Shown in pieces: positions 9,781 to 42,693 of a DNA stretch of 64,000 nt. Every line of letters begins with the position of its first letter. Position 1 is the first letter of the stretch. This stretch comes from Rhizobiaceae bacterium (lineage in GTDB: Bacteria > Pseudomonadota > Alphaproteobacteria > Rhizobiales > Rhizobiaceae): NCBI GenBank assembly GCA_019635775.1, contig JAHBYU010000009.1, positions 124,001 through 188,000 of the forward strand. Direction: 5' to 3'. The notes beneath the pieces are model-generated. The model worked only from the letters and a program-made list of their open reading frames with translations. It was not told the DNA's origin and searched no databases. The translations under genes were made by a program, and so were the position numbers.

Positions 9781-10347
9781 ATGATCCCAAGACCCTTAAA
9801 CACCGCGCCGCTCCTGGAGGGCGCCGACGATGACTGCGAAACCAGCACATGGCTTACCGGCACGGTCCGGACGATCCCTGCGACCCGCGTTTACGACCTC
9901 CCGATCGGAACCCTGATCCGGTTCAGCGACCACATTCCCGAGCCGCCTGCCGATCGGCAGGGCGACCTCGCTGTTTGGCGGCTCTTCAACGGCATCGGAC
10001 GGCTTGCCCGAAAAGATCCGCCGCCGCATTGCTCGCCTCTCGCGCACCCTGCGAGCATCACGATCCGAACAGCCGATTTCGGCGAGCACGGCGCGGCCGG
10101 GTTCACCTACGCGCTTGGCGAACCATCCACTGCGGCCATGCGCTTCGAAGTCCTCGAACTGCCACCGATCGGCTCGGTTCGCATCCTTGCTCGGGATGGA
10201 GACAACGCGGAGCTGTTGCATCTCGCCGAGGATGAGCGCGCCGCTATCGCGTGGCTCGCCCGGCACCCCGTCCCAATTGCGATCTTCAATCCCGTCACGG
10301 CCGATGAGATTGCCGCGCTGTCGGTCGAAGGCGGATGGTCGCGATGA
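9781..10347 (+). CDS. Hypothetical protein
   Basis: A 188-residue soluble protein that I do not recognise; no motif, signal or membrane segment stands out. The stop overlaps the next start (ATGA at 10344), so it is coupled to the following small gene. It begins a gene group after the parB terminator. Confidence 0.6.
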   Translation: MIPRPLNTAPLLEGADDDCETSTWLTGTVRTIPATRVYDLPIGTLIRFSDHIPEPPADRQGDLAVWRLFNGIGRLARKDPPPHCSPLAHPASITIRTADFGEHGAAGFTYALGEPSTAAMRFEVLELPPIGSVRILARDGDNAELLHLAEDERAAIAWLARHPVPIAIFNPVTADEIAALSVEGGWSR

Positions 10348-15476: not shown

Positions 15477-15806
15477 ATGAGCCCCACGGAGATACGCAGC
15501 AACGGCACCAGAACGCTCGGCGACACGCCGGACAGCATCGAAACGCTACTTGATGTCCTTGCACATCATCCACTGAACCGGATGTTCGAGAGGGTCTTCA
15601 TCGAGAATCTCGGAAACGGCAGCTGGCGGTTCCACGGCAATTTCCTGACGGTGTCGCATGTGTTCGATATCCGCAGCGATGATCCCGAAACCGTGAGGCT
15701 TCTCACCAGAGCAATCAACGCGAACCGGCGAATGCCCGGCTTTCGATCCCAGCCCAGCGCCGCCAAGCAGTGGCGCGCGATCCGCCAGATGCGCGGGTTC
15801 AAATAA
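15477..15806 (+). CDS. Hypothetical protein
   Basis: A 109-residue protein beginning MSPTEIRSNGTRTLG after a clear AGGAGG site. The central LGNGSWRFHGNFLTVSHVFD suggests a small beta-rich domain. Function unknown. A GA-rich leader starts 27 bases after its stop. Confidence 0.62.
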   Translation: MSPTEIRSNGTRTLGDTPDSIETLLDVLAHHPLNRMFERVFIENLGNGSWRFHGNFLTVSHVFDIRSDDPETVRLLTRAINANRRMPGFRSQPSAAKQWRAIRQMRGFK

Positions 15807-16002: not shown

Positions 16003-17676
16003 ATGACATCGCATTTCTCCTTCAATGCGCAGGTCTCGCCCGAGGCCATCGGAAAGGTCGGGCGCCTGTTCAACGCCTCGATCGGCGACATCCTCAACGA
16101 GCTTCTGCAGAACGCCCGCCGCGCGGGCGCCACGAAAGTCGTGATCGAACAGGTCGATGATCCCAGGTTCGGAAAGGCGGTCCGCATTGTCGATGACGGT
16201 GCGGGGATCGAAGACCCGCGGTCGCTGTTCTCGCTCGGTCACAGCGGATGGTCCGCGGCCCTGACGCAGTCCGAGGACGCCGCCGGCATGGGCTTCTTCG
16301 CTCTCGCCAATCGTGGCGCGGCCCTTGTCGCCAGGCAGAAGGACACCGTGCAATCCTGGGCGATAGAGGCGATGCCCGAGGCCTTTCACGGCAGGCAGCC
16401 GATCGATGTGGTGCCCGGTCCTGCAGGTCATGCAGGCGTGGCGATTACCTTCCCCGAAACCGACCACGACCATGTCGCCCGCGCTGTCCCGAACGCCGCA
16501 AGGTTCTTTCCGCTCACGGTCATCTTCAACGGCGAGGAGATGCGACACTCGGATTTCCTAGCGGAAGCGGAACATGTCGAGGAATGGCGCGGGGTCCGCA
16601 TCGGCGTGTTTGAGCGCGATAGCCCCTACAAGGACATTGCGAACGCGAATTTCCACGGGGTGACGCTCAGGATGCCGTTGCCGACGCTGTCGCAACATTG
16701 GCATCGCAATTATTGGGCCGGGATCGATGTCGTGGACTGCGCCCATCTCAAGCTGGTGCTTCCGGCCCGCAAGGAGGTCGTGCGCAATGCAATGTTCGAG
16801 GCCCTCGTGGAGGAGATCCAGCGCGTGTATTTCCGGCTGGTGTCTACACACACCGCCCATAGCCTTTCCTTTCAGGATTATCGGAAAGGGCTCGCCCTCG
16901 GCATCGATCTGAAAGAAGCCGAACCAAAACTAGCGCCGTTCACGCCCTCCTGCGCCGATTCCGATCGATTTGGGATGCGCACCCCATTGCCGGTATCGCC
17001 GGACGCCCTTCTCTACGCTGGCGAGGGACCCCTGGAGGAACAGGTTGTTGCGCATGCGATTGCCCGAACCGGGGAAGCTCTCCCGATGTTCGAACCGCAA
17101 GATGCCTTTGCCGGCTATGGATGGTACGACCGCTTGCGGCAGATTACGCTCAGATCGTACAGGATGCATATCGGCGCCGATTTTCAGAAGATCGATCCCC
17201 TTGACGCCTTTGAAGGTCAGGGACGGCCGGATATCCTCGAGGTCGACGTGAACGTCAGTGACGGCCAGTCGGATTCGGCGTGTAGCTGGTTGCTTCCGAC
17301 GGATCTGATCGTCACGGGTCACGACTATAGCGCACTGGACGACGTCGACATTCGCGTCACAAAACAATCGGAAATTCCGCCCGCCAAGCTACGGTCATTC
17401 CTGACCGACGCGCTGTTCTCACCGTGCGACGATGTCGACGCCTGCTCTTACGAGCAGCAGCTGGAATGGTTTCAGGACGAAGCCGAGGACCTGAGCATCC
17501 GGCTGCTTCAGTCGGAGTCGGATGCGGACCTGAACGCGATCCTTCGCACGGTTCGGCGTGAACTTCTCTGGCGCATGCCCAAGAAGGGGTCGTTCCACAT
17601 CCATATCGAAAACGGGGAGGTTTCGATCGACGGCCTGCCACCGGCTTCGAACGCGACGGCCGCGACGTCAGCTTGA
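16003..17676 (+). CDS. GHKL (HSP90-like) ATPase
   Basis: A 557-residue protein with a GHKL ATP-binding fold at the N-terminus. The N box is in LNELLQNARRAGAT (about 31-44), the G1 box is VDDGAGIED (63-71), and GHSGWSAAL with AAGMGFFAL (about 79-101) forms the lid/G2 region. The rest has no recognisable kinase, topoisomerase or MutL domain. Such stand-alone GHKL ATPases are recurrent in mobile elements and some defence systems. Here it forms its own unit between two leaders, so no partner can be named. Confidence 0.75.
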   Translation: MTSHFSFNAQVSPEAIGKVGRLFNASIGDILNELLQNARRAGATKVVIEQVDDPRFGKAVRIVDDGAGIEDPRSLFSLGHSGWSAALTQSEDAAGMGFFALANRGAALVARQKDTVQSWAIEAMPEAFHGRQPIDVVPGPAGHAGVAITFPETDHDHVARAVPNAARFFPLTVIFNGEEMRHSDFLAEAEHVEEWRGVRIGVFERDSPYKDIANANFHGVTLRMPLPTLSQHWHRNYWAGIDVVDCAHLKLVLPARKEVVRNAMFEALVEEIQRVYFRLVSTHTAHSLSFQDYRKGLALGIDLKEAEPKLAPFTPSCADSDRFGMRTPLPVSPDALLYAGEGPLEEQVVAHAIARTGEALPMFEPQDAFAGYGWYDRLRQITLRSYRMHIGADFQKIDPLDAFEGQGRPDILEVDVNVSDGQSDSACSWLLPTDLIVTGHDYSALDDVDIRVTKQSEIPPAKLRSFLTDALFSPCDDVDACSYEQQLEWFQDEAEDLSIRLLQSESDADLNAILRTVRRELLWRMPKKGSFHIHIENGEVSIDGLPPASNATAATSA

Positions 17677-31019: not shown

Positions 31020-31268
31020 CCGCCTCGAGCCGGCACGCGGGCAAGGGCGCGGCGTCACCGCAAGGCGCGCAGGCATGGCCGGGGTTCCACCGGAGAGGCC
31101 GCGCCCGCGGCCTGCCTGAGAGGCGATCCCTGCCACCCCCCGGCCACGGCCGCAACGGCTGCGCCGTCCTCCGCTTCGCTCCGGCCTGCGGTGCGGCCGC
31201 GCCCGGGGCGCGGCCGGGATGCGCTGTCAGGCCGCGATGGGCGCGGCCACAACCAACGGAGACACGCC

Positions 31269-33822: not shown

Positions 33823-34551
33823 GCCGCGACACGCATCCGCTGGGTCCGCTGGGCTTGAACCGCCGATGCCGATGTTTCAGCAGTGCGACGCGCCGACCCC
33901 TTGCAGACGGGCCTCGCGCACTGCGCGCCCGGTCGTTCGAGAGGATGACGCATCCCGTTCCCCGCTCCGCGAACCGCCTCGAAATTTCCCAAGGCGAAGC
34001 CACCCATGGCAGCCCGGCTCTCGGCGCGGCAGGTTCTGCGCCGGAGCGCCGCGATGGGGAGGCCCGGCCGGCGGAGATCCGGGAAGCCTGCGGTCTCGGC
34101 GATGCCCGGCAATCGTGGGCGTTCGCGCGGGGGGGGCCGGGGGCATCGGCGGTGAAAAGGCGCTGGCGGACGCGGGCGAGCCAGTCACTCCATCGATACG
34201 GGCTCGGCGGTCCGGCGGTGCATGCGTGGGGGCCTGATGTGCGTCGCCATCGGCCACATCCGGCCCATTCCCTGGTCATGTCGTCTTTGTAGAGGACCGC
34301 CTGCTTACTGCGGGCAACCCCTGAAGGGGTAAGACTCGCCCGAAAATTCGGCAAAATTCGATTTCGGTTGTTTGATGCGGACCCAGGCACTTTCTGAAGA
34401 CCGCGCCGCAAGCGGCTCGGAGAAAGTGCGGGTCCGCTTTGCTGCGGAAAATAGAATTTTGCCGAATTTTCGGCCGAGCTGCCCGCAGCAGGACGGCCCT
34501 CTCCTTCGACGCCATCGGGAATGGTCCTGATGCAACCGAAGGAGAAGTACA
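33823..34551. other. Long intergenic region, no convincing gene
   Basis: No frame in these 729 bases looks coding: the open frames on both strands are Arg/Pro/Ala-rich and lack ribosome-binding sites. There is an eight-base G run near 34131. From 34339 a long imperfect inverted repeat (listed separately) dominates. It may be relic DNA or a regulatory or mobile sequence. Confidence 0.5.
34339..34473. repeat. Large imperfect inverted repeat
   Basis: The left arm (34339-34399) starts CCGAAAATTCGGCAAAATTC and contains GCGGACCC and GCACTTTCT. The right arm (34415-34473), read on the other strand, gives CCGAAAATTCGGCAAAATTC, then GCGGACCC and GCACTTTCT in the same order. Arms of about 60 bases flank about 15 bases. 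The outer ends also share CTGCGGGCA (34308-34316, complement at 34480-34488). There is no transposase inside, so a miniature element or a very stable cruciform/RNA hairpin are both possible. Confidence 0.7.
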
Positions 34552-35588: not shown

Positions 35589-36117
35589 GATCGGATCGTC
35601 GCGTCTGAGACTGATGCCGTCCAACAAGTTCTATGAATCGATCCGTCTCCATCGATTCACGATGCTGATGCATCCGCTGCAAGAGCGGGATATGGGCGAG
35701 CCGGCCTGCGGCCGACCGCGCTCTATTCGCGGCCTGCTGCCGCTCACGGAGCCTGCCGAAGCAGTCTCCGCCTTCGGTGACGATCGCCTCTCGCTTGCTT
35801 CAGGGACCGGTTCGACCGGCCCCCTGAAGCAGACGAGGGGCATTCCCTCGCGCACCCGGCCGGCTGGTCGCCGGATATGGACGCGCCCCCTCACGGGGGC
35901 GCGGGTCTATCTCTCTGACGGCCCAGTCTACTGGCCGCTCCCATCGCCTCAAGGACTGCGCGGCGCCTCCAATTTTCAGCCGCCGCCCTGAAGAAGGGCG
36001 GCGGCAGAAAATCGGTTCCTCCGCTTGCCGCCTCCGGCGGTCGCTGCGCGATCCTTGACCCGACGCTCGACTTGCCCGTCGCCGGGGCTCCGTCATCAAG
36101 ATGAAGGAGACCATGAC
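35589..36117. other. Intergenic, first copy of a structured leader
   Basis: From about 35797 to 36056 this region is a chain of hairpins, the first of two similar copies (the second at 36784-37046). Elements in order: GCTTCAGGG/CCCTGAAGC (35797-35805 with 35822-35830) enclosing CCGG/CCGG; CGAGGG/CCCTCG; CCGGC/GCCGG; CGCGCCCC/GGGGCGCG; a long stem around CCAATTTTCAGCC; and CCGCC/GGCGG. Further upstream (35695-35796) are more short hairpins. It ends 60 bases before the next ATG, which has its own GAAGGAGA. Confidence 0.6.
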
Positions 36118-36675
36118 ATGGCACACAACACTCTCATGCTTATCGCGCAGCTGTCCGGTTTGCGCATCAACGTTCTCGCCAACCGCCTCGGCTGCGACAG
36201 CGGAGTGGCGCTCACCGTACACGACACCCTCGCGGCGAAGCTTGCGAAAATGATCGCAGCGCAGCGCAGGATCCTCGCCGCCGACCGGGCGTGTGTCGCT
36301 GCGCGCGGTACGCAGGACGAAGAGGACGCTTTCTACGATCTGCACCACTACCAGACGGCGTTCTATGAGACGTGGCTGATCGAACCGATCGCGCTCCTCG
36401 ACGACTATCTAGTGGACGACCTCACCAACGAGTACTTTCATTTCTACATCGGTGAATGGCGCCACCGGGACGGTGAGGTGCCGATCGCGGTGCCGGTTCC
36501 GGCCGAACGGCTCTGCGGTCTCGATACAATCATCACCGAGATCGAAGATGTCACCGGAGCCCGGTTCAGCGTCGAGAACGTCTACTACAGCGAAGCGGAA
36601 GCCGAGGCGGCGTGGTGGCAAAGCGTCGGCATGGATCCGGAAACGGTCTTCGGCGACGAGGTTGGCCGCCTTTGA
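36118..36675 (+). CDS. Hypothetical protein behind structured leader
   Basis: A 185-residue protein. Its middle (FYDLHHYQTAFYETWLIEPI) and C-terminal region (VPAERLCGLDTIITEIEDVT) show faint similarity in order to the protein at 37090, whose gene has the same type of leader. No domain or catalytic motif is recognised. AAGGAGACCATGAC precedes the ATG. A terminator with four T follows. Confidence 0.62.
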   Translation: MAHNTLMLIAQLSGLRINVLANRLGCDSGVALTVHDTLAAKLAKMIAAQRRILAADRACVAARGTQDEEDAFYDLHHYQTAFYETWLIEPIALLDDYLVDDLTNEYFHFYIGEWRHRDGEVPIAVPVPAERLCGLDTIITEIEDVTGARFSVENVYYSEAEAEAAWWQSVGMDPETVFGDEVGRL

Positions 36676-36684
36676 CGGCCCGGA

Positions 36685-36716
36685 GATCGGGGCGGTGAAA
36701 GCCGCCTCGATCTTTT
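36685..36716 (+). terminator. Rho-independent terminator
   Basis: GATCGGGGCGG (36685-36695) pairs with CCGCCTCGATC (36702-36712, one G-T pair) and TTTT follows. It ends the transcript of the gene at 36118, so the second structured leader belongs to a separate transcript or follows a read-through. Confidence 0.65.
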
Positions 36717-36783
36717 CATGTCTCAGCCACGCCGCGCCGAGGTTGACGTTGCCGCCCGGCGCGACAGCCCGCTCTTCCCACTT

Positions 36784-37046
36784 GTGCGCCAACGACCGGA
36801 TCGACCGGCCGCTGGCGCAGACGAGGGTTTTCCCTCGCGCTCCCCGCCGGCTGGTCGCCGGATATCGACGCGCCCTTCGGGCGCGGGGTCTTCCTCTGAC
36901 GTCCCATTGTACGCCAGCCCATCCGGCGTCAAGGACTGCACGGCCCCTCCAATTTTCAGCCGACGCCCGAAGTGGGCATCGCCAGAAAATCGGTTCCTCC
37001 GCTTGCCGCCGCAGGCGGTCGCTTCGCGATCCCTGACCCCTCTGGT
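36784..37046 (+). ncRNA. Structured leader, second copy
   Basis: This matches the segment at 35797-36056 over most of its length: shared blocks include GCAGACGAGGG, CGGCTGGTCGCCGGATAT, CTCCAATTTTCAGCCG and AAAATCGGTTCCTCCGCT. The first stem has different bases in the two copies but still pairs (TGCGCCA/TGGCGCA here, at 36785-36791 and 36813-36819). This covariation argues for a conserved RNA fold upstream of the gene at 37090. No known riboswitch is recognised. Confidence 0.55.
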
Positions 37047-37089
37047 CAACAGCGTGAACGCCTTTCCGTCAGACGAAAAGGAGTTCATC

Positions 37090-37554
37090 ATGACACGCAT
37101 CTTCAATCCCTATATCGCCCTCGACACCATCGATGCCATCCGCAGCAAGGTTCTGATCGGCCGTGACGAATGCCGAACGCAGTTCGCCCGGACCCTTCAC
37201 GCCAACCTCGCCGGGATGCTGGACGCGATGCGCGCCGATGTCGAGAAGGAGGTTCCCTATTGGATCGAGCAGAACGCAAAGCGCCATAGGTCCGAAAGGG
37301 ACCGGTCGTTGTTCGAGCTTTACTTCATGCGCCCATGTTTCGAACAGCACTGGATCGACGAGGGGCCACATTCGGTGCTCGATGAAATCAGCGTCACAGT
37401 CTATGCAGGCGAACCCGGCATTGCGTGCGGCGTGACACTCAGCCACACCGACGTTCCGGCCTCTGAGCTCGAGGGTCTCGACGCGTTCTTCGCCGACATC
37501 AAGCTCAAACTCGGCGTCACCATCAAGGCGGCGAAGCTCACCCACCGCCGCTGA
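37090..37554 (+). CDS. Hypothetical protein behind structured leader
   Basis: A 154-residue protein (YIALDTIDAIRSKVLIGRDE near the N-terminus, FELYFMRPCFEQHWIDEGPH centrally). The order DxxLFEL..F...CFE.HWI, LDEIS, VPASELEGLD resembles that of the protein at 36118, suggesting distant paralogy. Function unknown. AAAAGGAGTTCATC precedes the ATG. It converges with the XRE gene across a bidirectional terminator. Confidence 0.62.
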   Translation: MTRIFNPYIALDTIDAIRSKVLIGRDECRTQFARTLHANLAGMLDAMRADVEKEVPYWIEQNAKRHRSERDRSLFELYFMRPCFEQHWIDEGPHSVLDEISVTVYAGEPGIACGVTLSHTDVPASELEGLDAFFADIKLKLGVTIKAAKLTHRR

Positions 37555-39329: not shown

Positions 39330-39583
39330 GAAAATGTGTTTCTACTGACACACGAAACCATTTCCGTGTGGACGTGGATTCACACCGTTATAGAAACACA
39401 CGAACATGGAAAAAAACAATCAGATAGATATTGAAAAGTGGAAAAATCGTGAAAAGATCGGATTAATCACTATCATAAGTGTTGGCAGGATACGGAAAAA
39501 TGTGATACATTTTTCCTGACGATCGAGGGACAAGCCCTCGATCCGCGGCCTTCGGCCGCAACCCACCACGATCAAGAGTGCGT
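39330..39583. other. Probable oriT
   Basis: This AT-rich, repeat-rich spacer between the VirC1-like gene and mobC/relaxase has three relevant elements. TGGCAGGATA at 39483-39492 matches the core of T-DNA borders; its complement TATCCTG/C is the MOBP nic consensus, placing a nick between 39486 and 39485 on minus. GGAAAAATGT/ACATTTTTCC (39494-39503, 39507-39516) is a perfect inverted repeat next to it. GTGTTTCTA with TAGAAACAC (39339-39347 and about 39396-39404) flanks direct copies of ACACACGAA. Confidence 0.7.
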
Positions 39584-39988
39584 ATGTCGATGGCCGGCAG
39601 CCAATCAGAAGCGTCGAAACGGAAGGATAGGGTGGCACATGTCCGCTTCTCGCCGGCCGAGTTCGAGGCCCTGGAGGTGGCTGCGAGCGCAGCGGGAATG
39701 ACCGTTTCTGCCTTCGTGCGGTCCCTTTCCATGGAAGGCGCCGGCGTGCGGCCGTTCCTGGCAGAAGGGGATCGTGCAGTCCTCGGCCTGCTTGCCGATG
39801 GCATGCGGGCGATCGGCGGCAACCTCAACCAGATCGCGCGCGCCATCAACACCGGTAAGAAGACGGTGGCCGATAGAGACGTGGCCGGCAGCATCCGCGA
39901 CGCGCATGGGGTGGCGACCGCTCTCGCGGCCGAGCTCGGCGAGATGACCAGGCGGTCCGCCGCCATCAGGCGCGGGGAGGATGGCTGA
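39584..39988 (+). CDS. mobC: MobC/VirD1-like relaxosome protein
   Basis: A 134-residue protein with an N-terminal ribbon-helix-helix (VAHVRFSPAEFEALEVAASA then AGMTVSAFVRSLSME) and the MobC signature GGNLNQIARAIN near 86-97. It would bind oriT and help the relaxase open the DNA. The first in-frame start is a GTG at 39578; ATGs at 39584 and 39590 are also possible. Its stop overlaps the relaxase start (TGATG). Confidence 0.75.
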   Translation: MSMAGSQSEASKRKDRVAHVRFSPAEFEALEVAASAAGMTVSAFVRSLSMEGAGVRPFLAEGDRAVLGLLADGMRAIGGNLNQIARAINTGKKTVADRDVAGSIRDAHGVATALAAELGEMTRRSAAIRRGEDG

Positions 39989-42693
39989 TGGAAATCCTTC
40001 CCGGCGCCTTCGAACGGGAGTGGGAACGCCGCCGCGCCGTGCTGATGCATGAAATGCAGCTTGGCCAGGTCGACAAGGGCGATTGGGAAGAGCCGCGAAG
40101 GGGAGGGGTGGCTCGGCTTCCTGAGACGGGTCCTGGCGGCTTTGGCCGGGGGCGTCAGAGTGGCGGCGCCAGCCGCGTGCGGCGGGCGCGGAGCGGCGCA
40201 GGCGGCCGCTCGATGCGGACGCGGTTCTCGGCGCTGGCGCGGGGCAGTCAGCCAGCGGTGGTCAAGCTTGCTTCCTATGGCGGCGGCTCGCGCGCCGGAG
40301 CGATGATGAGCTACACTTCGCGAGGAGGGGAGCTTGCTGTCGAAAATGAGCGCGGCGAGCGTATTCTCGGCAAGGAAGCACTCGCCGAACAGCGTGCAGA
40401 ATGGGAACATCTGTTCGACAATCGCGCTCCCAGCCGCGATCTTGGCGTGTTCCATGTTTCGGTCGACGCGAGTTCGCTGCGCGACGACGTCGATCAGGGC
40501 GATCAGATGCGCGAAATCCTGCGCACCGGATTTGGTGACCGGCGGTTCGTCTATGCAGCTCGGGAGCGAGGTGCTGGCGAGATCTATGTGAGTGGCGTTG
40601 TCGTCCTGCGTTCGGAGAATGGTGAGCGACTGACCGGTGACCGGAAAGCTGCCGAAATCATCCAGCAGCGCTTCGACGATTCCGATGCCGGCCGGTATGT
40701 CGAGGCACGATTCCGTTTTCATGGCTACGGCAATGGTGTCGAATGGGGCACGGCGCGGGTTCGGGAACTGGTCACGGGTACCGACAGCGAGGTTCGCGAC
40801 GACACTGGCCGGTTGATCGGTGACGCCACGCAGGCCGGCGATCTGCTCCAGAAGGAATGGCGCAGCGAACTGCACAGCCGAAAGGGCAGGGACGTCATGC
40901 ACCTGATCGTGTCGGCGCGCGCCGGGACGGACGGGGCAGCCTTCGAGGGAGCGGTGCGTGAGTTCCTGGGCGATCAGTTTACCGACCATCGCTACATTTT
41001 TGCCGTTCACGATCCGGCGCTCGACCCGAAAGAGATGGCCGAGGGCGGCAAGCGTCCGCATATCCACGCCCATGCGATCGTCACCATGCGCTCGGAGACG
41101 GGGGAACGGATCGTCACCAGCCCGCAGACATTCAGGGAGTGGCGATCCCTGATGGCGGAGAAAGCCCGGGAGCAGGGGATCGACATGGAGTTGACGGACC
41201 GTCGCGACTTCGCGAATGCGCCCGCCTACACGCGCAATCAGGTGCGGCCGGTCAGCTATCGCGGCCGTACGGAACATGAGGGCACCAGCCCCATTGCGGA
41301 TGTCCGCTACCAGGCGAAGCGCACGAACGAGATCAACCTCGCAAACACAGACCGAAGCCGGCAGTACGCAGCCCAGGCGGCCGAGGCATGGAACGATCTT
41401 GCCGACGAAGAGCGCGGCTCCCGGGAAGGGGCCTATGCGCTACAGCAAAGCGGCCGTCTCGAAGGGTTCGCAGACAACTACCAAAAAGATCATGGTTTTG
41501 GAGGAGAATATCCAGAAGCTATCAAAAATGTAGGCAATATGGTAGAGTTAGTTGAGTTCCTGAACGGTGAGGATGGACAGATGCGAGAGATGACGCGTCC
41601 GGAATTCGAGGCCTATGAGAAGCGCGTGGAAGCGGTCCTGGCGTCCGTAGAGCAGACGCTCGATGTATCCGAACGCGCCGACTTCAACGAGGTCGCCGCG
41701 GCTGCCCGCGAGGTGGTGGACATTCGCCGGGATCACCTCGAACTGTCGGAACGGCAGGCCCACGGCGAGCCTCGTGAGACCTCTCTTGAAAATCGAGACG
41801 ATGACCACACACATGTCGCTCGAGACAATTTGTTCGACGAGGCCATCGCGCGCCATGGCGAAAGGGCGGTGCGTGACGGGGACAGGATCTTGGCAGAATA
41901 CGATGCCGTGTCCCTCTCGGTCGAAAGGGCCACGGGCAGGTTCACCAACCCTCGCGAGGGCTCATCCGATGATGAACGTGAAGCCAATCGGGCAGCATAT
42001 CTTCTGGAATCGGATAGATACGATGCCGTGCTCAAGAGCTATGCCAGAGAAGCTCTCGACGGCAATACCTATCTTTACGAGCGATCGAAGGGAGAAGAAA
42101 ATCTGCAAGAGGCGCTAAGGGACGAGGCTCAGGATAGAGCTAACCGGCGGGCCATCGATAGGTACGACCCCTCGAGAAACCTCCCGGCCAGCCAACATGA
42201 TGAGAATCTAGTTCGCGCCGGGGACGAGTTGTTTGAACGCATCGATGCAGTGGGGAGAGAGGTATATCGCCTTTATGAACCGGAACGGCGGGACAACAGT
42301 TCAACACGCTCGGACGATCCGGGCGAGACCCAAGCCGAGCATGACCTTCGGATCGCGAAGTTGAGCGAGGCCGAGGCCCAACATGCGGGTTTGTTACGGG
42401 AGGCTGCTCAGGTAGCCCTCGACGGCAACGGGTACATCCGTGACATGGCAACGATCAGACACGACTTGAACAACGAGATCCACATGGAAAGTCGACGGCG
42501 CGCAGAAGCGGTGCAGGGACGTGACGAGAACGCAGCTGGCGCATCTGGACCGTCCGAGCGCGCAGACCGTGCCGTGCGCTTGAATGAGGACAGCAGGGCA
42601 GATCCGCCTCAGCAGCATGTGCCACGACTTCGCCAGATTGAGCTGGAACTTGTAGAGCGGCAGGATCGCGATCGTGACGATCGGGAGAGGTGA
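39988..42693 (+). CDS. Relaxase (MOBP/VirD2-like)
   Basis: A 901-residue relaxase. The metal-binding motif is RPHIHAHAIVTM (about 357-368), preceded by DVMHLIVSA (302-310). Candidate nicking tyrosines are Y97 and Y109 in the LASYGGG and MMSYTSRGG segments. Residues 151-210 look like a degenerate copy of 301-370 in which the histidines are lost. The C-terminal 400 residues are helical with repeats ending DGNxY(I/L). It would cleave oriT, remain bound to the 5' end, and be exported through VirD4/VirB. It is coupled to mobC and followed directly by a small membrane protein. Confidence 0.82.
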   Translation: MEILPGAFEREWERRRAVLMHEMQLGQVDKGDWEEPRRGGVARLPETGPGGFGRGRQSGGASRVRRARSGAGGRSMRTRFSALARGSQPAVVKLASYGGGSRAGAMMSYTSRGGELAVENERGERILGKEALAEQRAEWEHLFDNRAPSRDLGVFHVSVDASSLRDDVDQGDQMREILRTGFGDRRFVYAARERGAGEIYVSGVVVLRSENGERLTGDRKAAEIIQQRFDDSDAGRYVEARFRFHGYGNGVEWGTARVRELVTGTDSEVRDDTGRLIGDATQAGDLLQKEWRSELHSRKGRDVMHLIVSARAGTDGAAFEGAVREFLGDQFTDHRYIFAVHDPALDPKEMAEGGKRPHIHAHAIVTMRSETGERIVTSPQTFREWRSLMAEKAREQGIDMELTDRRDFANAPAYTRNQVRPVSYRGRTEHEGTSPIADVRYQAKRTNEINLANTDRSRQYAAQAAEAWNDLADEERGSREGAYALQQSGRLEGFADNYQKDHGFGGEYPEAIKNVGNMVELVEFLNGEDGQMREMTRPEFEAYEKRVEAVLASVEQTLDVSERADFNEVAAAAREVVDIRRDHLELSERQAHGEPRETSLENRDDDHTHVARDNLFDEAIARHGERAVRDGDRILAEYDAVSLSVERATGRFTNPREGSSDDEREANRAAYLLESDRYDAVLKSYAREALDGNTYLYERSKGEENLQEALRDEAQDRANRRAIDRYDPSRNLPASQHDENLVRAGDELFERIDAVGREVYRLYEPERRDNSSTRSDDPGETQAEHDLRIAKLSEAEAQHAGLLREAAQVALDGNGYIRDMATIRHDLNNEIHMESRRRAEAVQGRDENAAGASGPSERADRAVRLNEDSRADPPQQHVPRLRQIELELVERQDRDRDDRER

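Follow-up and report, generated by a model that had tools for sequence, protein, structure and literature searches.

In the plasmid F, the sites Frpo1 and Frpo2 are located upstream of ygeA/ygeB and ssbF, fold as single-stranded DNA (ssDNA) with -10 and -35 boxes, and are required for early expression, according to excerpts of PMC9849209. Together with the homologous sequences of ColIb-P9, they are described in excerpts of PMC9849209 and PMC11541004 as lying in the leading region, ahead of leading genes and in more than one copy, and the single strands of these Frpo/single-strand initiation (ssi) sequences fold and rebuild the -35 and -10 boxes. Further candidate ssDNA promoters, located ahead of anti-defence genes, were obtained by Samuel et al. 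2024 by BLAST from five known Frpo/ssi sequences; in the excerpts used here, the same work also drew on four islands, from Salmonella, Serratia, an insect metagenome and Streptococcus, and its main text contains 0 occurrences of Agrobacterium or Rhizob (PMC11541004). Position, copy number, single-strand folding and, for the candidates, placement ahead of genes with a possible anti-defence role are points of likeness to the element presented here, a duplicated structured sequence in a stretch of 64,000 nucleotides of a Rhizobiaceae bacterium (contig JAHBYU010000009.1, positions 124,001 to 188,000; hereafter, the window). Each copy of this element is, with a probability of roughly 75%, an ssDNA promoter for leading-region genes, representing a new alphaproteobacterial family. 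To our knowledge, the only experimentally tested ssDNA promoters are those of enterobacterial plasmids. No recognisable report of an alphaproteobacterial ssDNA promoter family was found in the literature, judged by titles and abstract openings, and the fragment CCCCCAATTTT returned nothing on plasmid transfer, judged by titles.

A preliminary description of the window had proposed a duplicated structured leader, and both copies were found at the positions given there, with 83.0% identity over 259 nt; they contain blocks that are 89-91% identical and a first hairpin that is 81% identical. The stems read in that description are present in the letters: the first stem is GCTTCAGGG/CCCTGAAGC in one copy and TGCGCCA/TGGCGCA in the other, each around CCGG/CCGG, and the next hairpins are of the CGAGGG type, CCGGC/GCCGG and GGCGG. 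The long helix, said to be partly kept by wobble, has A.C on the plus strand (CCAATTTTC/GAAAATCGG; TCAAGGA/TCCCTGA), and G.T wobble exists on the minus strand only. No Rfam family reached its gathering score in the window, which bears out the suggestion of a cis-acting structured leader of an unmatched class; the element resembles the cis-regulatory leaders of Rfam in being a structured element before a gene, but the favoured strand is the opposite one. No further copies were found in the same genome by the exact pattern or by the covariance model (CM) R1 with strict filters. The minus strand is taken as the transferred strand (T-strand) because of the relaxase position and nic-like motifs, not from mapped nicks. 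The element copies and their parts are as follows.

35797..36061, minus strand (T-strand): element copy 1; CM core 35905-36073, 141.0 bits, full-length on minus
36785..37046, minus strand (T-strand): element copy 2; CM core 36886-37051, 151.2 bits, full-length on minus
35949..35955, no strand assigned: closing helix P1 of copy 1, arm TCAAGGA (plus letters), which holds the T-strand -35; pair counts
36052..36058, no strand assigned: closing helix P1 of copy 1, partner arm TCCTTGA; pair counts
36929..36935, no strand assigned: P1 of copy 2, arm TCAAGGA; pair counts
37030..37036, no strand assigned: P1 of copy 2, partner arm TCCCTGA (A.C on plus, G.T on the T-strand); pair counts
35947..35952, minus strand: -35-like TTGAGG of copy 1; column conservation
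35925..35930, minus strand: -10-like TAGACT of copy 1, spacer 16; A column 80/80, T column 78/80
36927..36932, minus strand: -35-like TTGACG of copy 2; column conservation
36906..36911, minus strand: -10-like TACAAT of copy 2, spacer 15; column conservation
35969..36015, minus strand: P3 hairpin of copy 1 (CCAATTTTC/GAAAATCGG), A+T-rich, at the place of an UP element; pair counts
36949..36993, minus strand: P3 hairpin of copy 2; pair counts

Iteration with a hidden Markov model yielded 199 copies at 135 loci, a collection that excludes L001, L002 and L005, which duplicate the window or nearly so. Structure counts refer to 80 dereplicated copies in alignment A1, in T-strand orientation, after the deleted copy L074_5183 was dropped from 81. 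The folded architecture is represented by the closing helix P1, two small hairpins and the long P2/P3 hairpin, with 31 pairs in five helices, of which 97.3% are standard. Covariation is strong: 15 of the 31 pairs are altered on both sides, with a mean of 5.7 in shuffles; double-change cells number 114 (28.4 in shuffles), the covariation score is 0.170 (0.074 in shuffles), and none of five structure measures was matched by any shuffle (0/500). Because the full structure was a hand drawing based on copy 2 and was counted only afterwards, it has an advantage over its slid versions, in which the paired fraction drops to 36-49%. Double changes recur on a quick tree built from the element copies themselves, with 7, 10, 13, 15, 4 and 3 state changes in the six pairs tried. 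With RNAalifold, the minus strand gave P2 and P3 but no other helix, and the plus strand gave no structure. Conservation is inflated at CAAGGAC, YCCAATTTT and AAAATCGG, because the pattern by which genome loci were fetched fixes them; among the affected letters are TTG in the -35 and, at column 171, the T that faces the drifting position of P1. The pattern does not extend to the -10, to P2 or to the 3' arm of P1.

The copies read toward the relaxase gene or the origin of transfer (oriT) in 11 named plasmids and in the window. In seven Ti-type plasmids (p42a, A. pusense pA, Ancylobacter pD, pTiC58, those of Shinella and Roseibium, and pSinA), they read toward the gap between the divergent traC and traA, lying on its left side. 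The copies of three sphingomonad plasmids precede TraD and the relaxase (MobF in two annotations), in a region where antitoxin, ssb and DUF736 genes are also present; the window and the plasmid near-identical to it have them before MobC and the relaxase. No relaxase was shown in the fetched stretches L003, L009 and L010, and L135, a 16.6-kb plasmid whose relaxase is ahead of the copy by 11 kb and on the same strand, was left out of the count. Among genome contigs, the pattern matched on 27, and 10 of them also have a PF03389 relaxase among those listed; in all 10, copy and relaxase are on one strand with the relaxase ahead, although these contigs are not all independent (G023 and G387 belong to the same genus and share units); L005 is nearly identical to the window. 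The CM found 36 full-length copies, distributed over 15 sources, each copy on the minus strand of its locus. Because most loci had been turned to the query, the multi-copy sources are the telling part of this result: in the 10 sources with between two and seven copies, 31 in all, the strand was the same for every copy of a source. On the plus strand, the CM gave six partial matches (E 0.006-0.1), which fall on the palindromic part of P3.

The motif TATAATTGCG/CCCTT, which we take to be similar to the RSF1010 nic, was found by eye on the minus strand of five of the seven traC-traA gaps (L004, L006, L008, L011 and L136), while L007 contains a variant of it and L134 contains TAAGTGCGC; the RSF1010-type nic in the form TAAGTGCGCCCT had no exact match in the 16 sources tried. 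One nic-like motif is present in the window, presumably of the RP4 type, and would make the minus strand the T-strand, with the leading region to the left.

39484..39492, minus strand: nic-like TATCCTG/CC in the ParA-MobC gap; 1 match in the window
39578..42693, plus strand: MobC-like gene (by the annotation of the near-identical plasmid) and relaxase gene (39988-42693; PF03432, 4.8e-07)

A start codon with a Shine-Dalgarno-like stretch is located 50-61 nt beyond P1 in 71 of the 80 copies and at 72 nt in one; for the other eight, no start codon was found within the 40-75 nt searched. In the 199-copy set, a second mode of gene distance at 88-98 nt probably reflects mis-called starts. This regular spacing bears on the reading of the element as a single-strand initiation site that primes the complementary strand, with a promoter role secondary or absent. 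A T-strand fold within leading regions would suit such a site, and Frpo is reportedly, by the title of Masai and Arai 1997, a site for both transcription and primer synthesis. As the principal role, priming is nevertheless unlikely, since a single site should do, whereas up to 7 copies occur per locus and the distance from each to the following start codon is typically fixed.

Folded with DNA parameters, the minus strand is more stable than the plus strand in 79 of the 80 copies, by a mean of 9.3 kcal/mol. The strand difference is 1.0 kcal/mol in the flanks (275 windows) and 4.9 kcal/mol in dinucleotide shuffles of the elements, and it exceeds the copy's own shuffle mean in 72 of 80; the mean z against shuffles is -3.6 for the minus strand and -2.1 for the plus strand. 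Non-Watson-Crick cells are represented by 156 G.T on the minus strand versus 15 A.C, which are G.T on the plus strand. The two pairs whose drifting positions are not fixed by the pattern are G.T in 38 of 80 copies (P1) and in 23 of 80 (P2). On the tree of copies, the drifting positions undergo 22 (P1) and 11 (P2) state changes, and their partners undergo 0 (the T of P1, fixed by the pattern) and 2 (the G of P2, not fixed).

The same data bear on the role assigned to the element in the preliminary description, that of a plus-strand cis-acting RNA leader (riboswitch, attenuator or protein-binding leader), here of leading-region genes. A covarying conserved structure at a fixed distance ahead of start codons would be expected of such a leader, and the plus strand also beats its own shuffles, with the z value given above. 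A cis-regulatory RNA leader demands, however, a selected structure on the plus, transcribed strand, and none was found: the plus strand is the less stable one in 79 of 80 copies, and its helices would be interrupted by A.C, midway along P1 in 38 copies and within P2 in 23. Fold stability, the main non-Watson-Crick drift, the conserved -35/-10 and the orientation toward relaxase and oriT all favour the minus strand, and the last of these would be left unexplained by an RNA leader. The RNA leader is set aside because of this strand evidence and is considered quite improbable.

The ssDNA promoter reading draws on the order of signals along the minus strand, where, from 5' to 3', an A+T-rich arm of P3 is followed by TTGA within P1 and then by a -10-like hexamer. 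This hexamer has A at place 2 in 80 of 80 copies and T at place 6 in 78 of 80, four positions apart, in a stretch outside the search pattern where the surrounding columns are mostly weakly conserved. A and T at these places of a -10 box are the bases held flipped out by sigma-70. TCAAGG is kept in 23 of 26 copies gathered by similarity. The spacer between -35 and -10 is 15 nt in 35 copies, 16 nt in 12-13, 17 nt in 24 and 18-20 nt in 8-9, and its length correlates with gene distance (rho 0.82, n=71), a relation confounded by lineage. No -10 on the plus strand downstream of P1 is evident in the column conservation of the 80 copies.

Boxes of this kind would also be read leftward in duplex DNA, and the element may be viewed as a double-stranded operator or as an ordinary leftward (antisense) promoter from TTGAC...TACAAT. 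The compensatory changes between arms about 100 nt apart, the strand bias and the fixed spacing to the rightward gene are left unexplained by this view, and many of the copies have 15-nt spacers, which are poor for duplex promoters; it is accordingly held to be very unlikely. Seven element copies are present in about 10 kb at L003:26900-37100, each ahead of a small open reading frame (ORF), in an arrangement resembling a cassette array. A recombination site folded on one strand, like the integron attC, could form such an array of repeated element and small-ORF units and would share the single-strand folding, but the fixed distance ahead of start codons does not fit it and no integron integrase is among the annotated names of the L003 stretch, where only the annotation was looked at, so that this possibility is extremely slight.

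Several results weigh against the elements being ssDNA promoters. Since the shuffles differ by 4.9 kcal/mol, composition accounts for about half of the strand bias. Of the 156 G.T cells, 136 are concentrated in three pairs, including one with 75 cells at letters that the pattern fixes, and the remaining 28 pairs are even (20 versus 15). In the 5' hairpin domain, neither strand is clearly favoured (28/46 and 20/33). The 15-nt spacer of 35 of the 80 copies is short for sigma-70, and, although the -35 lies within helix P1, pairing between the -10 and the strand opposite is not convincing. No relaxase is listed for 17 of the 27 contigs with a copy. The nic-like motif of the window is weak alone, with 0.33 expected by chance and presence in 29 of 100 shuffles. 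Model R1 had no match at E<=1 in positions 48000-67800 of F.

The conservation, covariation, strand preference, boxes, spacing and orientation described above were computed; recognition by the polymerase, the timing and a protective role of the genes are what we infer. During conjugation, the minus strand would enter the recipient as the T-strand, with the leading region early, and would fold into P1, the two small hairpins and the P2/P3 hairpin. The 3' arm of the folded strand would present the A+T-rich stretch and a duplex -35 (TTGA in P1), followed, mostly 15-17 nt further, by the -10 (A...T), which is unpaired in the model. Recipient RNA polymerase would bind there and copy the T-strand 5' of P1, toward oriT; because the arm with the -35 is the one on the 3' side of the T-strand, the opposite arm of P1 would lead straight into the template of the gene. 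The resulting mRNA would encode the plus-strand gene, whose start is 50-61 nt away, and would be made before the plasmid is double-stranded; second-strand synthesis would then turn the promoter off. Each copy is probably able to prime the complementary strand as well.

The T-strand element thus resembles the Frpo/ssi ssDNA promoters, without detected similarity to Frpo of F. In a control scan of the leading region of F, the four most stable T-strand windows were found at 10081-10121 and 15521-15561. They precede ssb and the gene at 16033, and their T-strand is favoured by 3.7-8.9 kcal/mol, while the fifth (7721) had no such excess. These four are presumably the published places of Frpo2 and Frpo1, an identification supported by their 90% identity over 548 nt. 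Unlike Frpo of F, the new element belongs to another host class, is carried by MOBQ, MOBP and MOBF plasmids, has spacers of 15-16 and 17 nt, and folds, in the model, into a compact multibranched core whose closing helix contains the -35 and whose -10 is left unpaired.

Among 72,556 plasmid records, blastn with copy 1 matched 457 (limit 1e-5), 323 of them typed as conjugative, and blastn with copy 2 matched 528 (limit 1e-3), 382 of them conjugative; the matching records belong mostly to Rhizobium, Agrobacterium and Sinorhizobium, and the plasmids carrying the element are typed MOBQ, MOBP and MOBF. The pattern scan of genomes yielded at least 120 stretches. All 119 loci with an organism entry belong to four orders of Alphaproteobacteria, namely, Hyphomicrobiales (71), Acetobacterales (32), Sphingomonadales (12) and Rhodobacterales (4), and 16 loci have no entry. 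Counts by genome, each including the genome of the window, were 24 of 237 whole genomes sampled from its family for the pattern and 7 of 142 genomes sampled from the class for CM matches, two of them weak (36-38 bits). This low genome frequency is the patchiness of a mobile element. The order-wide pattern search, with 3 of 199 genomes, again including that of the window, was uninformative.

The genes behind the two copies in the window are the following.

36118..36675, plus strand: gene behind copy 1, 185 amino acids; no match in Pfam (E<=1) or PADLOC (E<=0.01)
37090..37554, plus strand: gene behind copy 2, 154 amino acids, of the same family as the copy-1 gene; no match in Pfam (E<=1) or PADLOC (E<=0.01)

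The two proteins, described earlier as sharing a faint order of motifs, are distant members of one family (23% identity). The fold predicted for the copy-1 protein has a mean pLDDT of 89.9, and the fold search gave no match at E<=0.001 (best E 0.18 in the PDB and 0.56 in the viral library). An ORF was called behind 183 of the 199 copies (16 have none), and blastp divided these ORFs into 22 groups. The largest, a family of 45-75 amino acids with 85 copies and no Pfam family over the cut-off (for example, L003:31337-31501, L004:20170-20331 and L008:16111-16278), was found by tblastn in 306 plasmid records. The second is the family of the copy-2 gene of the window, with 40 copies, followed by a group of 15 without a Pfam family over the cut-off, SLOG/YAcAr with 10 (E 1.8e-23) and one DUF3846 singleton. 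A group of 5 and several singletons look like mis-called frames; this group contains window copy 1, the gene of which fell into a mis-called frame in the ORF calling for the 199 copies. An establishment or anti-defence role of the downstream genes is possible, by their neighbours and by analogy with F.

A protein frame on the minus strand was also considered as the conserved unit. No gene lies under the element in 31 of 40 (copy 1) and 52 of 60 (copy 2) listed plasmid matches, by a gene table that is incomplete; the remaining listed matches have a hypothetical protein there (5 and 4) or are without annotation (4 and 4). Minus-strand coding is unlikely and is set aside because most of the listed matches have no gene beneath.

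Other leaders of the leading region were also noted. At 34270-34551 of the window, a long hairpin-rich leader precedes a DUF736 gene and matches 262 plasmid records; the DUF736 leaders of Ti-type plasmids form a separate conserved family with no obvious common -35/-10. The leader at 31020-31268, before a SLOG/DUF2493 gene, matches 86 plasmid records and has a very stable fold of its minus strand, at -74.0 kcal/mol per 170 nt compared with -62.6 for the plus strand. Among 31 leaders without CM overlap (DUF736, ArdC, ParB-like, ssb and SLOG), hand-picked before forward leading-region genes of L003, L004, L006-L011, L132-L134, L136, L137 and the window, the T-strand folds better in 28, by a mean of 5.65 kcal/mol; in the controls, the numbers were 10 of 15 (0.71 kcal/mol) for forward genes beyond oriT and 18 of 27 (1.23 kcal/mol) for reverse genes.

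There is a slightly better than even chance that one family of ssDNA promoters, which arose independently and has its -10 already open, is common to alphaproteobacterial conjugative plasmids of at least four orders (those of rhizobia, acetic acid bacteria and sphingomonads as well as Ti plasmids, differing in relaxase class), that further, unrelated families of T-strand-folding leaders are located before ArdC, ParB-like, ssb, SLOG and DUF736 genes, and that much of the leading region would thus be transcribed from the incoming single strand. With model R1, genes of the leading region can be recognised on alphaproteobacterial plasmids, and two small, unknown protein families, that of 45-75 amino acids and that of the two window genes, become candidates for an establishment or anti-defence role. 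A second family of ssDNA promoters without detected sequence similarity to the first would suggest that early transcription from the single strand is a general solution in plasmid transfer, a question that becomes testable in rhizobia.
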